Below are positions 6,803-63,816 of a DNA stretch of 64,000 bases, in pieces. A program made the position numbers and the translations under genes. The notes under the pieces were generated by a model. That model did not search any database, was not told where the DNA came from, and saw only the letters and a list, made by a program, of their open reading frames with translations. This DNA comes from a virus: the IMG/VR virus record IMGVR_UViG_3300032046_000001, positions 62,001 through 126,000 of that record; one strand, 5' to 3'. Each line of letters starts with the position of its first letter. Position 1 is the stretch's first letter.

Positions 6803-6820
6803 CATATATTAATATATATA
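6803..6820. promoter_or_regulatory. Promoter-like motif, site 1 of 4
   Basis: CATATATTAATATATATA between divergent genes. The same 18 bases recur at 12583, and the core TATTAATATATATA recurs at 53504 and 59740, always between a - strand and a + strand transcription unit. The following TTATTTGTGGGAACAAA is also near-repeated after site 2. Direction is not decided by the sequence because the core is close to palindromic. Confidence 0.55.
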
Positions 6821-6885
6821 GAAGATTGTTTATTTGTGGGAACAAATTTTAAATTATAATAACAAATAAATGAGGAAATAATTGA

Positions 6886-7406: not shown

Positions 7407-7491
7407 AAGAGAGATAGAGATTGCAACTCGAAAAGAAGTAATCCGAAACTTCCTTCTCTCTTTAATATAATTCGGAAATAACAATCGGAGG
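7407..7491 (+). promoter_or_regulatory. Homing-endonuclease leader RNA, copy 1 (pseudoknot)
   Basis: Outer stem AAGAGAGA (7407-7414) with TCTCTCTT (7455-7462). Hairpin 1 is GAG...CTC at 7417-7429 with a bulged A. Hairpin 2 is GAAGT/ACTTC at 7435-7452 with loop AATCCGAA. Loop bases TCCGAA (7442-7447) pair with TTCGGA at 7471-7476. The loop bases CCGA could instead pair with TCGG at 7485-7488, overlapping the Shine-Dalgarno GGAGG. Two more copies stand at 12640 and 63119, each directly before a homing-endonuclease gene. Confidence 0.75.
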
Positions 7492-7500
7492 TTATAAAAA

Positions 7501-8088
7501 ATGAAAATATTTGAAAATTTAGACTTACGAGATTTAGATAAAGAAGTTTGGAAAACTATAGAAGAATATCCAGATTATCAAATTAGTAACTTGGGTAGAG
7601 TTAAAAGTTTTAAAAATAATTGTGGTATAGATGTTAAAATATTAAAACAAATAAAAGATAAAAATGGATATCTAATTATTGATTTATATAAGAACGGAAA
7701 ATCAAAACTTAAAAAAGTTCATCGTCTTGTTTATGAAACTCATACAGGAAAATTAGAAGAAGATTATGATGCTCATCATGTAAATGAAGATAAAGAAAAT
7801 AATTTTGTTGGGAATTTAGAAACTAAAGAACATGGAAAACACTCAAAAGATCATCATAAAGATAAAATAATTTCAAAAGAAATAAGAATAAAAATGAGTA
7901 ATACAAGAAAGGAAAGATATAAAAAAGAAAATCATCCAAATTATAAAATAACAAATCAAAAAATTATTGATATCGTCGTTGATATAGAAAAAGGAGATTT
8001 AACACAAGTAGAAATAGCTAAAAAACATGGAGTTGGTCAAACAACAGTATCGTGTATAAAAACAGGAAAATTAAAATTTTATAATTAG
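7501..8088 (+). CDS. NUMOD4/HNH homing endonuclease
   Basis: NUMOD4 module near residues 10-55 (WKTIEEYPDYQISNLGRVKS), HNH core HHVNEDKENNFVGNLE near 97-112, and a NUMOD3-like stretch. A C-terminal helix-turn-helix follows (LTQVEIAKKHGVGQTTVSCI). The tail is very like that of the GIY-YIG protein at 12735 although the catalytic domains are unrelated. Start follows GGAGG at the end of the structured leader, so the leader probably controls translation. Unlike most HNH genes here it is not coupled to an upstream stop. Confidence 0.9.
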   Translation: MKIFENLDLRDLDKEVWKTIEEYPDYQISNLGRVKSFKNNCGIDVKILKQIKDKNGYLIIDLYKNGKSKLKKVHRLVYETHTGKLEEDYDAHHVNEDKENNFVGNLETKEHGKHSKDHHKDKIISKEIRIKMSNTRKERYKKENHPNYKITNQKIIDIVVDIEKGDLTQVEIAKKHGVGQTTVSCIKTGKLKFYN

Positions 8089-12582: not shown

Positions 12583-12600
12583 CATATATTAATATATATA
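12583..12600. promoter_or_regulatory. Promoter-like motif, site 2 of 4
   Basis: CATATATTAATATATATA, identical over 18 bases to site 1 at 6803. It lies between the - strand membrane-protein array and the leader of the GIY-YIG gene. TTATTTGGGAACAAA downstream also matches the flank of site 1, so a longer control region is shared. Confidence 0.55.
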
Positions 12601-12639
12601 ATTCGGAAACATTATAACCATTATTTGGGAACAAAATTA

Positions 12640-12725
12640 AGAGAGATAGAGACTTAAGCTCGAAAAGGATAACCAGTAATCCCTGCTCTCTATAATTTTA
12701 TTTACTGGTAAATTCAAAACTGGAG
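12640..12725 (+). promoter_or_regulatory. Homing-endonuclease leader RNA, copy 2 (pseudoknot)
   Basis: Outer stem AGAGAG (12640-12645) with CTCTCT (12686-12691). Hairpin 1 is GAG...CTC at 12649-12661. Hairpin 2 is GGAT/ATCC at 12667-12682 with loop AACCAGTA. The loop pairs with TACTGGT at 12703-12709, whereas copies 1 and 3 use TCCGAA/TTCGGA, so both strands changed together. CCAGT can also pair with ACTGG (12719-12723), which runs into the Shine-Dalgarno GGAG. Confidence 0.78.
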
Positions 12726-12734
12726 AATTTTAAA

Positions 12735-13433
12735 ATGAATAGATATTATATTTATATTTATCTTGATCCAAGAAAACATGGAAAATATTGTTATAAAAAT
12801 ATGTGTTTTACTTTTGAACCTTTTTATGTTGGTAAAGGAAGTAATGGAAGATATAAAAATATTAGTAGAAGAAGTGATTATTTTATAAGAAAAATAAATA
12901 AAATTAAAAAATCTGGATTAGAACCAATTGTTATAAAATTATTTGAAAATTTATTTGAAAAACAATCATTAGATAAAGAAATTGAATTAATAGAAGAAAT
13001 TAGAAAAATAAATCCAGGATTTCTTGTTAATGAGACAGATGGTGGCGATGGTACAAGCGGATATATTCATACTGAAGAATCGAAAAATAAAATGAGTGAA
13101 AATCATAAGGGAAAAATAGTTTCTGAAGAAACAAGAAAGAAAATGAGTGAAAACAACAAAGGAGAAAATCATCCAAATTTTGGAAAACATCCATCAGAAG
13201 AAACAAGAAAGAAAATGAGCGAATCACAAAATGGTAAAAAACTTTCTGAAGAAACAAGGATGAAAATGAGTGAAAATCATTATAATAAAATACCGGATCA
13301 AAAAATTATCGATATTCAATCAGATATAGAAAAAGGAGATTTTACTCAAACTGAAATATCTAAAAAACATGGAGTTTGTAGAATGACGATTTGGAAAATA
13401 AAAACTGAAAAAATTATAGTGGTGAATAAATGA
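12735..13433 (+). CDS. GIY-YIG homing endonuclease with four NUMOD3 repeats
   Basis: YYIYIYLDPRKHG near residue 4 and PFYVGKGSNGRY near 31 form the GIY-YIG motif; LVNETDGGDGTSGY near 97 ends the domain. Four NUMOD3 units follow, each with SEETRKKMSE-type sequence. The tail is the helix-turn-helix FTQTEISKKHGVCRMTIWKI shared with HNH genes. The gene stands directly behind leader copy 2. Its stop overlaps the next start as ATGA. Confidence 0.9.
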   Translation: MNRYYIYIYLDPRKHGKYCYKNMCFTFEPFYVGKGSNGRYKNISRRSDYFIRKINKIKKSGLEPIVIKLFENLFEKQSLDKEIELIEEIRKINPGFLVNETDGGDGTSGYIHTEESKNKMSENHKGKIVSEETRKKMSENNKGENHPNFGKHPSEETRKKMSESQNGKKLSEETRMKMSENHYNKIPDQKIIDIQSDIEKGDFTQTEISKKHGVCRMTIWKIKTEKIIVVNK

Positions 13434-59841: not shown

Positions 59842-62800
59842 TTGTTCAGTATTAAAAATTCAAAATTCAGTGATTGTTTTTCTTGTAAATTATTAGGTGC
59901 GCCTTCTTGTATTCTTGAGACGAACTGTAAAGATGATTTATCAAAAATTGACATAATCATAGTTGCTGAAAATCCAGGAAAAAATGAAGTTGAAGCTGGT
60001 ATACCATTAATTGGAAGATCTGGTAAAACTTTCAGAAAATATTTTGACAAGTATTTGAGAAATCTAAATTATTTAATTACGAATGTTGTGTTGTGTCAAA
60101 CTATTGATGCTGAAGGAAATACGAGTAATCCCGATGATGAGACAATTGAAAGATGTAAAAATAATCTTGTAGCACTAATAGATATCTGTAAACCTAAATT
60201 AATTTTTTGTATGGGGGCATCACCAGCAGCAGCATTCGATATTAAGAAAGTGAAAATGACTGATGTACGTGGTGAAATTATAAAATGGAATGGTTATGAT
60301 GTATTATTAACAATACATCCTTCATATGTGAATAGAAATAAAAAAACCAATCCAGAATTTGAAATGAATTTTGAAAGTGATTTTGTGAAAGCCGCGAATT
60401 TATTAGGTATTAGTGTCAAACAGAACAATGTTGAAGAAAGTTTTGTGTCAACATCAAAGGGCATACAATCATATATGATTCCTGAAAAATATTATACTGA
60501 TGAATACAGATTAATTGATATTCATTATTCATCTTTAAAAAATCAAGTGATTTATATTTTCAGAGATAAGAATGAAGTGAAATCATACTATATTGTTGAT
60601 GATCAATATTATTGTTATCAAACACCAACAAAAATTGATAATAGACCAGTTGTTGAATATGATAATTTAAATCGATTATCAATAAAATATGCCGACAGAA
60701 AAAGATTAGATTCTAAAATCACATATGAGGGTGATATTAAAATTTATGATAAACACATCATTGATTATTTTATTCACAATAAGGGTGAAGCGATTGACAC
60801 AAATTTAAATATTTACTATGTTGATATCGAAGTCGATCCTGGTGAATCAAAAGGTGTATCAAATGCCGATGAAGCTGAGTTTCCAATTAATTTAATTACT
60901 GTCAGATATAACGGACAAACTATAACGTATGTTTTGGATAATGGAACAAAAATTAACAAAATAAAAGATGTTGAACTTAAAATATTCAAAACTGAGAAAT
61001 CACTAATGATAACATTCTTGGATGATTTAGATAAATTCAATCCCGATATAATCACTGGATGGAATGTTATTAGTTTTGATATGTGTTATATTTTCAATAG
61101 ATTGCCAAAACTAAATATTAATAAAATGAGAATATCACCTTTCAAAGATGCGTATATCGATAAAGAAAGAGGATATGCGAATGTTCCTGGTTATGTTCTG
61201 ATAGATATGTGTTCATTGTACAAAGAGTTCCAATTGAAAGCCAGAGAAAATTATAAACTTGGTACAATCGCACAGGTCGAAGTTGGTGAAACAAAAATTC
61301 AACTCGAAGGTTCATTTTCAGATATGTATCGAAATAATATTAATAAATTTATCGAATATAATATTCGAGATACAATGCTCCTAGAGAAACTTGAAAATAA
61401 ATTAAAGTTCATTAAGTTATTGAATGAATTAAGAAGAATTTGTTCTGGATCTTTCAAAACATGTGAAAATACATCAGGACGTTTGGACTGTTTAGTAACA
61501 AGACATTTGAAATGTAAAAATTTCGCTTCCAGAAATTCACAAGGTCTTTCTAAAGAAAAATTTCCAGGAGCGTATGTCCAAGAACCAATGATGGGAATTC
61601 ATAATTATGTAGTTGATTTTGATTATAAATCTCTATATCCGAGTTTAGTATTGACCTACAATATTGGTATTAATACATTCTTGATGAAGTTTGAGAATTT
61701 AAGATTCGGTTATGACTTGGCGTATGACATTGATAATTTACCCGAAAAGTTCATTATTGTTAAAGATCCATTATTTAAGAATGAACGAATTGAATATACA
61801 AAAGAACAACTTTTAAATGAAATAAAAGATCAAAATCTTATTTGTACAATTAATGGTTGTTTTTATAAAAATCATAAGACCGAGCTATCATATTATAGTG
61901 AAATTCTTGAACATCTTCTGAGTTCACGAGATGTCTCCAAGAGAAAGATGTTAGAACTAAAAGAGGCGAAAGAATTTGATATGGTTGAGTTATATGATAT
62001 TCGACAGAAAACATATAAAGTTTTAGCCAATGCTCTTTATGGTATTTTAGGAACTAATATTTATAGATTCTTTAATCTTGATATGGCATCTTCGATTACA
62101 CTATCAGGACAAGAAGTTATTAAAAATTCAATTTTACATGTTGATAAGTATATGGATAATTTAAAGAGAGGAATTAAAGAAGATGTTGATATCACAATAT
62201 CAAAAGAAAATGTCTACACTGATTGGATGGATGTGAAATTGAAATATATCATTACAAGCGATACCGATTCGATATTAGCGACATTATCAAAATTTATAAA
62301 AAGTAAAGATTATGAAACATCAATTCAAGAAATGACAGATATCTGTTCGAGTATTCAAAATTTTATAAACAATCAAGTTGTTTCAAGAATAATAAATAGA
62401 CATAATGTTCCAATTGATAAAAATCGATTAAAAATTAAAAATGAATTGATGTGTTCGAGAGGTTTATTTGTTAGCAAGAAACACTACGCACTCTATGTAA
62501 TATTTCAAGAGAATAAACGTGTTGATGAAATGACAATTACTGGATTAGAAATAAAACGTCGTGATTTTTCATCATATACAAAAGATTGTATGAAAGAACT
62601 TCTTGATATTATTTTAAAATCTGAAAAAATATCATTTAATCAAATTATGTCATATGTCAAGGAGAAAGAATATGAATTCATTAAAAGAATTCGATGTGGT
62701 GATAAAACTGTTGCAAGACCAAGTGGTTGGAAGAAAAAATTAGATGAATATAAAGTTATTCCTCAAGGAATTTACGCAATGATGAACTGGAACGATTTAT

Positions 62801-63075
62801 TATATAATTCATTCGAATGTGGTGTTCGTGGATATTTATTTAAAATTAATGGCATAGATATTTCAAAGACACCAAAGAATGTTATTGAGAATTATAATAA
62901 AATATTTGTATCTGGTGGTAAAACTTTAGAAACCATATGTGTACCGGATGAAGAATCCAGACTTCCTGAATATTTTATCCCAGATATGAAAGAGATGTTA
63001 AAGTTTCACTGGATTGATCGTTACAGTCAGTTATTAGCACCAATTATTAAACCAGTTGAATTAGTAAAAATTTAA
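59842..63075 (+). CDS. Uracil-DNA glycosylase/family B DNA polymerase fusion
   Basis: 1077 residues; TTG start after AAGGAG. Residues 1-~200 are a UDG-superfamily domain, family 4-like: CFSCKL, VAENPGKNEVEAGIPLIGRS near 40-59, and LTIHPSYVNRN near 157-167. The polymerase follows: exo I DIEVD near 329, exo II NVISFD near 409, exo III YNIRD near 507. Palm motif A is DFDYKSLYPS near 592, motif B KVLANALYG near 726 and motif C SDTDS near 806-810. Most exonuclease and polymerase carboxylates look intact. This is the phage replicase; the N-terminal domain may let it sense or remove uracil. Confidence 0.92.
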   Translation: MFSIKNSKFSDCFSCKLLGAPSCILETNCKDDLSKIDIIIVAENPGKNEVEAGIPLIGRSGKTFRKYFDKYLRNLNYLITNVVLCQTIDAEGNTSNPDDETIERCKNNLVALIDICKPKLIFCMGASPAAAFDIKKVKMTDVRGEIIKWNGYDVLLTIHPSYVNRNKKTNPEFEMNFESDFVKAANLLGISVKQNNVEESFVSTSKGIQSYMIPEKYYTDEYRLIDIHYSSLKNQVIYIFRDKNEVKSYYIVDDQYYCYQTPTKIDNRPVVEYDNLNRLSIKYADRKRLDSKITYEGDIKIYDKHIIDYFIHNKGEAIDTNLNIYYVDIEVDPGESKGVSNADEAEFPINLITVRYNGQTITYVLDNGTKINKIKDVELKIFKTEKSLMITFLDDLDKFNPDIITGWNVISFDMCYIFNRLPKLNINKMRISPFKDAYIDKERGYANVPGYVLIDMCSLYKEFQLKARENYKLGTIAQVEVGETKIQLEGSFSDMYRNNINKFIEYNIRDTMLLEKLENKLKFIKLLNELRRICSGSFKTCENTSGRLDCLVTRHLKCKNFASRNSQGLSKEKFPGAYVQEPMMGIHNYVVDFDYKSLYPSLVLTYNIGINTFLMKFENLRFGYDLAYDIDNLPEKFIIVKDPLFKNERIEYTKEQLLNEIKDQNLICTINGCFYKNHKTELSYYSEILEHLLSSRDVSKRKMLELKEAKEFDMVELYDIRQKTYKVLANALYGILGTNIYRFFNLDMASSITLSGQEVIKNSILHVDKYMDNLKRGIKEDVDITISKENVYTDWMDVKLKYIITSDTDSILATLSKFIKSKDYETSIQEMTDICSSIQNFINNQVVSRIINRHNVPIDKNRLKIKNELMCSRGLFVSKKHYALYVIFQENKRVDEMTITGLEIKRRDFSSYTKDCMKELLDIILKSEKISFNQIMSYVKEKEYEFIKRIRCGDKTVARPSGWKKKLDEYKVIPQGIYAMMNWNDLLYNSFECGVRGYLFKINGIDISKTPKNVIENYNKIFVSGGKTLETICVPDEESRLPEYFIPDMKEMLKFHWIDRYSQLLAPIIKPVELVKI

Positions 63076-63118
63076 TTTGATATGGAATTATTTTATCATG
63101 GATGATAACAAAATATAA

Positions 63119-63202
63119 AAGAGAGATAGAGACTTAAGCTCGAAAAGAAGTATTCCGAAACTTCCTTCTCTCTTTATTATTCATTCGGAATGATTATCGG
63201 AG
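63119..63202 (+). promoter_or_regulatory. Homing-endonuclease leader RNA, copy 3 (pseudoknot)
   Basis: Outer stem AAGAGAGA (63119-63126) with TCTCTCTT (63167-63174). Hairpin 1 is GAG...CTC at 63129-63141. Hairpin 2 is GAAGT/ACTTC at 63147-63164 with loop ATTCCGAA. The whole 8-base loop pairs with TTCGGAAT at 63184-63191. CCGA of the loop could instead pair with TCGG at 63197-63200, touching the Shine-Dalgarno CGGAG. Confidence 0.78.
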
Positions 63203-63210
63203 ATTATAAA

Positions 63211-63816
63211 ATGAAAATTTATGAAAATTTAGATTTACAAGATTTAGATGTAGAAGTTTGGAGAACTATAAAAGAATACCCAGATTATTCTATTAGTAAT
63301 TTAGGAAGGGTTAAATCATTAAAATTTGGAAAAGAAAGAGTATTAAAACAAGGTAAAAATAGTAGAAAATATTTTTGTGTTGTTTTATCTAAAAATAAAA
63401 ATAAAAAAACAAAATTAGTTCATATACTTGTTTTTGAAATTTATAATAATTACAAATTAAAATCAAATGAGTGTATTCATCACAAAGATGGGAATAAAGA
63501 AAATAATTATTATAAAAATTTAGAAAGAATGACTAAATTAGATCACTTAAGTTTACACAACAAAGGAGAAAACAATCCTATGTTTGGAAAATATTTATCT
63601 ACAAAAACAAAAATGATGATAAGTAAAAATCATTTCGATAATAAAGGTGAAAATAATCCACATCATAAACTAACAGAAGAACAAGTTATCCAGATAAAAT
63701 TATTATTAAAAGAGGGAATATTAACTCAAGAAGAAATAGCTGATATATTTGGAGTTGGTAAAATGACAATTTCAAAAATAAAGAGAGGAAAATTATGGAA
63801 ACATGTGAAAATATGA
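63211..63816 (+). CDS. NUMOD4/HNH homing endonuclease
   Basis: Start at the ATG after CGGAG at the end of leader copy 3; an ATG 21 bases earlier lies inside the pseudoknot region. NUMOD4 (WRTIKEYPDYSISNLGRVKS), HNH core HHKDGNKENNYYKNLERM, NUMOD3 units, HTH LTQEEIADIFGVGKMTISKI. Located between the DNA polymerase and QueE genes, a common place for homing genes. Stop overlaps the QueE start as ATGA. Confidence 0.9.
   Translation: MKIYENLDLQDLDVEVWRTIKEYPDYSISNLGRVKSLKFGKERVLKQGKNSRKYFCVVLSKNKNKKTKLVHILVFEIYNNYKLKSNECIHHKDGNKENNYYKNLERMTKLDHLSLHNKGENNPMFGKYLSTKTKMMISKNHFDNKGENNPHHKLTEEQVIQIKLLLKEGILTQEEIADIFGVGKMTISKIKRGKLWKHVKI

Follow-up and report, generated by a model that had tools for sequence, protein, structure and literature searches.

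A leader RNA before phage homing endonuclease genes, a divergent branch of int-alpA, is a probable translational switch

Described relatives and the family of the leader

The int-alpA RNA (RF02996) occurs in Proteobacteria near integrase and alpA genes; it was reportedly named in a 2017 survey of 224 candidate structured RNAs. Rfam assigns it the type 'Gene; sRNA', and the literature that we searched holds one passing mention of it and no published function. Structures of another kind belong to the T4-type homing endonuclease genes (I-TevI, segB, mobE), whose ribosome binding sites are hidden in RNA hairpins (PMC2988022). The leader RNA described here would likewise be an RNA structure that hides the ribosome binding site and thereby controls how a phage homing endonuclease is translated; the T4-type hairpins, however, are simple and gene-specific, with control by promoter choice (PMC2988022), whereas the leaders form a single conserved junction-pseudoknot family and have a decoy strand. 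As in translational riboswitches, near-equal alternative anti-SD pairings lie beside a conserved folded core, and this junction core is coupled to an expression platform, but the anti-SD of the leader is a hairpin loop and no Rfam riboswitch matches it. Rfam returned no match to the HEARO / IscB omega RNA either, and the adjoining genes are NUMOD4-HNH or GIY-YIG-like, not IscB-like.

The window, that is, the whole stretch of 64,000 nucleotides analysed here, is part of a 312,420-base IMG/VR virus record. The initial annotation described three copies of the leader in it, each ending at the ribosome binding site of an ORF, and this was borne out: the GAGAGATAGAG-N-CTCGAAAAG motif occurs exactly three times in the 64-kb window, at 7409, 12641 and 63121, and in none of 100 shuffles, and the 3' end of every copy is the SD of an ORF. 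All parts of the three copies and all ORFs located below by window coordinates lie on the + strand. The three-way junction of copy 1 spans 7407..7462 (models R1 and R2, 78.8 bits, E 5e-15, and covariation) and is made up of P1 (7407-7413/7456-7462), J1/2 AUA (7414-7416), P2 GAG/CUC (7417-7419/7427-7429), J2/3 GAAAA (7430-7434), P3 (7435-7439/7448-7452) and J3/1 CUU (7453-7455). That of copy 2 lies at 12640..12691 (59.8 bits, E 1e-10), with P1 AGAGAG/CUCUCU, P2 GAG/CUC and P3 GGAU/AUCC, and that of copy 3 at 63118..63175 (75.9 bits, E 2e-14), with P1 AAAGAGAG/CUCUCUUU, P2 GAG/CUC and P3 GAAGU/ACUUC. Plain MFE folding gives the junction for two of these three copies, with modest z-scores.

Seven copies in the phage's own genome, and one in another contig, came from a pattern search. 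The covariance search that the initial annotation had proposed, whose first model was built from 6 copies, yielded 14 in the same 312-kb genome, with E values from 1e-17 to 2e-5, and some 25 in other phage contigs. When viral contigs were scanned by pattern, a GATAA-core variant came to light, as did copies in unrelated, higher-GC contigs, where the P1 letters are quite unlike those of the window (GGGGTTAG/CTAACCCC, GTTGCAG/CTGCAAC, CGCTCAG/CTGAGCG). Neither the leader nor the int-alpA consensus has DNA similarity to known phages. In bacterial genomes the first pattern gave 18 chance matches, with neither structure nor nuclease, and a scan of 391 Clostridia genomes gave three chance matches only, all inside coding sequence. 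Two contig loci, L106 (G003:33004) and L130 (G010:5357), carry a reduced copy with P1 and P2, without P3, and a short non-nuclease ORF behind it; another weak copy (L129) lies in a head-gene region.

For the covariation analysis, 33 distinct copies were aligned by fitting them to the covariance model, which favours pairing counts, and 98.8% of their pair cells hold standard pairs. Twelve of the 14 stem pairs have changed on both sides, a signal that 0 of 500 shuffles come near and that slid registers destroy; because the copies share ancestry, the counts do not represent independent events. The changes can nevertheless be followed by eye: P2 appears as GAG/CTC, GAA/TTC, GAT/ATC, GGG/CCC or GAC/GTC, and P3 as GAAGT/ACTTC, GGAT/ATCC, GTAG/CTAC, GATG/CATC, GAGAA/TTCTC, GTTG/CAAC and others. 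P1, constant among the three window copies, co-varies in other copies. The single-strand core of AUA, GA(A/U)AA (GAWAA) and CU(K) is nearly fixed. What the initial annotation described as stems, variable helices (three) and pseudoknot strands holds, and the comparison strongly supports the earlier proposal of a real, selected and folded RNA, a modular leader with a pseudoknot. Extra small hairpins occur between the pseudoknot strand and the SD in L104, and between P1 and the pseudoknot strand in L123, with the other pairings kept.

The initial annotation knew of no described element with this form, and in this respect it has to be revised. At the RF02996 gathering cut-off of 35.8 bits, the Rfam search that it had suggested found two of the 14 own-genome copies, at 172.5 kb and 37.6 kb (36.6 bits each), and two contigs, L143 (43.8 bits) and L141 (35.9 bits). 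The window copies are below this cut-off: the whole window had no Rfam match at gathering cut-offs, and the three copies stayed under the reporting limit for RF02996, not reaching E 10, which places them in a divergent phage branch. L143 forms a bridge, as it reaches 47 bits with model R2 as well, a model that recovers canonical members poorly (best 20.6 bits). When the Rfam consensus is aligned to L161 and L164, the P1-P2-P3 three-way junction and the UAG ... GAAAAG ... CCUG core are present, and the 3' tail of RF02996 (model end AgGG) is complementary to loop 3 in both branches. RF02996 was found in 39 of the 369 gammaproteobacterial genomes sampled and also in E. coli prophages, where one copy stands in front of a gene annotated as an HNH endonuclease; no alpA gene turned up.

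On account of these matches, the reading as a new RNA family is rejected. Since canonical and E. coli prophage copies also have the arrangement of loop 3, decoy and SD set out below, the leader is filed as a divergent phage branch of int-alpA, a known orphan family. Both branches share the P1-UA-P2-GAAAA-P3-CUK-P1' layout and core, an AAGG-type 3' tail strand complementary to loop 3, and a copy of that strand at the SD with a further hairpin, P4, downstream. The phage branch differs in being AU-rich, with a P1 often of the GAGAG type and a J2/3 that may be GAUAA; in having a varying palindrome as loop 2, where int-alpA has GACG or UAGCU; and in standing mostly before homing endonuclease genes in phage contigs.

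Pairing partners of loop 3 and the palindromes of loop 2

Three features had escaped the first reading: the SD region is a second copy of the pseudoknot strand, so that loop 3 is complementary to both; the SD lies in a fourth hairpin; and loop 2 is nearly always a varying 6-nt palindrome. In copy 1, loop 3 (AATCCGAA, the putative anti-SD, 7440..7447) is predicted to pair through TCCGAA at 7442-7447 with the pseudoknot strand TTCGGA (the putative anti-anti-SD, 7471..7476) or, alternatively, with TCGGA at 7485-7489 in the SD region (ATCGGAGG); the P4 hairpin AUAAC-AAUCGGAG-GUUAU (7478..7495) holds the SD, CGGAGG (7486-7491), inside its loop. The corresponding parts of copy 2 are loop 3 AACCAGTA (12671..12678, pairing letters ACCAGTA), the pseudoknot strand TACTGGT (12703..12709), ACTGG at 12719-12723 within the SD letters ACTGGAG, and P4 AAAUUC-AAAACUGGA-GAAUUU (12710..12730). 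Copy 3 has loop 3 ATTCCGAA (63152..63159), the pseudoknot strand TTCGGAAT (63184..63191), TCGGA at 63197-63201 in the SD region and P4 AUGAUU-AUCGGA-GAUUAU (63190..63207). Other copies carry triads such as CCTTG, CAAGG, CAAGGAG and TCCTGA, TCAGGA, CAGGAG.

We parsed 41 phage-branch and 27 canonical int-alpA elements and measured how well each loop 3 pairs with its own partners and with swapped ones. Pairing with the pseudoknot strand averages 6.05 nt for own partners against 3.49 +/- 0.16 for swapped ones in the phage branch, and 5.22 against 4.10 +/- 0.15 in the canonical branch. Pairing with the SD averages 4.76 against 3.59 +/- 0.12 in the phage branch, where the maximum in 500 swaps was 3.90, and 4.85 against 3.98 +/- 0.15 in the canonical one; part of this match is unavoidable, since all SDs are rich in G, an effect that the swap control removes for the most part, not entirely. 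Both matches are therefore specific to the individual copy in both branches, even though L153 and L141 pair poorly with their own SD. The P4 stem around the SD measures 5.92 bp against 4.57 +/- 0.18 after swapping in the phage branch and 4.00 against 3.31 +/- 0.18 in the canonical branch, and it is also longer than in shuffled controls; it is weak (2-3 bp) in the glycosyltransferase-type copies.

The two helices that compete for loop 3 have computed mean energies of -7.6 and -6.7 kcal/mol in the phage branch and -8.0 and -7.7 kcal/mol in the canonical branch, and the decoy helix is the more stable of the two in 30 of the 41 phage copies. Independently found, two copies in E. coli prophages follow every pairing rule with unrelated letters: one has loop 3 CGTAGA, pseudoknot strand TCTACG and SD TTCTACGAGG within AAACC-...-GGTTT, and the other loop 3 TCGTCA, pseudoknot strand TGACGA and SD GACGAGG. 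Copy-specific dual pairing together with similar helix energies fits the scheme of an anti-SD with its anti-anti-SD, and the comparison of sequences establishes that loop 3 can pair either with the decoy strand or with the SD.

Loop 2 has a different property. What the initial annotation took for a C-G or T-A inner pair of hairpin 1 is really one edge of a 6-nt palindrome, TTGCAA in copy 1 (7421..7426) and CTTAAG in copies 2 (12653..12658) and 3 (63133..63138). Among 20 distinct loop-2 hexamers, 12 are perfect palindromes (CTTAAG, TTGCAA, TGATCA, CGATCG, TCTAGA, TCATGA, TGCGCA, TCGCGA, TTCGAA, ATGCAT, CGTACG and GCATGC) and 18 have palindromic inner four letters. Against an expectation of 1/64 the former count has p about 2e-17 if independence is assumed, shared ancestry lowering the number of independent cases; counted over loops, 15 of 24 are palindromic where letter shuffles predict 1.6. 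The palindrome is not kept in canonical int-alpA, where the loop is mostly GACG. An ordinary hairpin was considered for loop 2 and rejected: its 2-nt inner loop would be unable to pair, which leaves the palindromic inner four letters of 18 of the 20 hexamers unexplained. As the hairpin itself could not produce this inner palindromy, kissing homodimers are the simplest reading, and we regard dimerization through these candidate kissing sites as likely. A 6-nt self-complementary loop on a stem is what DIS-type kissing dimers have, and the HIV-1 DIS and other palindromic kissing loops likewise have a 5' spacer before the 6-nt palindrome of their hairpin loop (PMC7357161); the leader differs in its very short stem (3 bp) and its many different palindromes, and its dimer is predicted from sequence.

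Genes and genome context of the leader

Copies 1 and 3 precede genes for homing endonucleases with NUMOD4 and HNH_3 domain matches, at 7501..8088 and 63211..63816; the position of the SD suggests 63211 as the start of the latter, in place of an in-frame ATG at 63190. Upstream of copy 3, the ORF at 59842-63075 is unusual in fusing a uracil-DNA glycosylase superfamily domain (N-terminal, 8e-21) to a family B DNA polymerase. Behind copy 2 lies a GIY-YIG-like + NUMOD3 endonuclease gene (12735..13433), whose protein matches NUMOD3 at 1e-21 and the LEM-3 GIY-YIG domain with 25.1 bits, below the cut-off of 27. The two unrelated nuclease families proposed at the outset are thus supported, the second of them weakly; PF01541 had no match in the phage's own genome.

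The 14 own-genome leaders precede ten NUMOD4-HNH genes, two GIY-YIG-like genes, a 50-aa zinc-finger ORF and, at C1:40120, a 17-codon GIY-YIG-like remnant before another ORF. At this last locus (L003 / G000:C1:40120, - strand) about 17 GIY-YIG-like codons run into a 386-aa ORF that by eye resembles a 5'-3' exonuclease, and the leader was perhaps kept after the nuclease was lost. In other contigs the RNA stands before HNH genes (L153 and the E. coli copy L208), a lipoprotein gene (L113), diverse unknown genes and, in L150, a gene that looks by eye like a glycosyltransferase (weak LpxB match, E 0.006). Compared with the intact L150 gene (MRIDNTKVKVDKAEGGT..., other frame), the ORFs behind the leaders of L137 and L149 have a different beginning, and the start of the downstream gene seems to be altered. 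The link to homing endonucleases holds within this phage lineage, where nuclease genes dominate, but the RNA also stands before lipoprotein, glycosyltransferase-like and assorted integrated-element genes, and a strictly nuclease-linked RNA is rejected; the variety of genes points to a general expression module of mobile elements.

The phage's own genome has 24 NUMOD4 homing endonuclease genes, of which 14 lack the leader. Eleven of these 14 abut or overlap an upstream ORF, starting within -12 to +20 nt of its stop codon, which suggests translational coupling, whereas the ten with a leader either start at least 91 nt away from an upstream stop codon or lack an upstream ORF altogether. In several cases no more than about 20 nt separate an upstream stop codon from the beginning of the leader, close enough for a terminating ribosome to make contact with P1, which would be one possible trigger. 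One NUMOD4 gene (L021 / G000:C1:246310, - strand) lies directly behind an apparent tRNA gene, read by eye. An exact 18-mer, CATATATTAATATATATA, occurs twice in the window and once more with one mismatch (6803-6846, 12583-12635, 53504); GGGAACAAA follows both exact sites by about 20-30 nt and is also found upstream of other leaders, for example L086, L088, L098, L105 and L124. The two motifs may be a phage promoter and transcript start.

A proposed translational switch and its alternatives

We propose, with a probability of roughly 0.7, that the leader acts in cis as an RNA switch of translation and belongs to a divergent phage branch of the int-alpA family. Since loop 3 can pair with the decoy or with the SD, translation is probably switched on and off; control at this level is suggested by the SD pairing, and the assignment of the ON state by the logic of the switch. 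With junction and pseudoknot formed, the pseudoknot strand would tie up loop 3 and leave the SD usable; with neither formed, loop 3 would kiss the SD loop and block initiation. The balance could be shifted by a signal such as a ligand, upstream translation, RNA level or a protein, and the palindromic loop 2 may, less certainly than the SD switch, let two transcripts form a kissing dimer. In this phage the leader would allow a nuclease gene to insert just after the stop codon of another gene as a self-contained, tightly controlled unit.

The same letters could arise if the structure were a constitutive insulator that, without switching, shields the ribosome binding site from the sequence upstream and fixes translation at a low level, the match between loop 3 and SD being a by-product of G-rich SDs. 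That leaders stand at free-standing nuclease genes and are absent where the gene is coupled to an upstream ORF would suit such an insulator, as would a decoy helix that, being the more stable one in those 30 phage copies, may simply stay formed; but the letters 5' of the SD core track loop 3 in each copy, above all 500 swaps, little energy separates the two helices in either branch, and the core is conserved far beyond what an insulator needs, so we hold this reading to be improbable. We think it decidedly unlikely that the RNA is a trans-acting sRNA, its transcript ended by P1 and a U-rich stretch and its loop 3 silencing other mRNAs. The Rfam label and the GC-rich P1 and pyrimidine-rich linker of canonical copies agree with that proposal, yet almost all parsed copies are followed, about 25-60 nt downstream, by a start codon of their own, with an SD that co-varies with loop 3, a hairpin keeps this SD in register, and the phage-branch linkers consist of mixed A and U and are no terminators.

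Two further readings concern single features. If the palindrome acted in DNA, for example as a site for a dimeric protein or for the nuclease itself, and were unrelated to RNA dimers, its form would be typical of protein sites, and three identical CTTAAG loops do stand before different nuclease types; still, a co-varying RNA stem always closes the loop in which it sits, with the palindrome flush with the 3' strand of that stem, and no single protein site fits because its sequence varies widely, which leaves this reading with very little probability. Slightly less credible again is a ribozyme or an RNase-blocking ring of the xrRNA kind, for which the topology alone speaks: flavivirus xrRNAs have the same topology, with a pairing of the loop 3 type behind P1, but among the Rfam families no ribozyme or xrRNA matches up to E 10, and the pairing of loop 3 is tied to the SD. 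The switch is our preferred reading. A broader version of it, in which all int-alpA RNAs would be versions of one translational switch, widespread in phages and integrated elements and built from a signal-sensing junction-pseudoknot core, an anti-SD loop, a decoy strand and an SD hairpin, and the phage branch would also form homodimers through private palindromes, so that expression would track the amount of its own mRNA, we put forward as speculative and more doubtful than the switch itself.

The phage copies vary enough to expose the triangle of loop 3, decoy and SD together with the SD hairpin, and these give a concrete, testable mechanism for the whole int-alpA family, suggesting that the int-alpA label should be cis-regulatory and not sRNA. 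Selfish nuclease genes would carry their own translation control module and, if the dimer is true, this would be a rare RNA of bacterial type that senses its own concentration.
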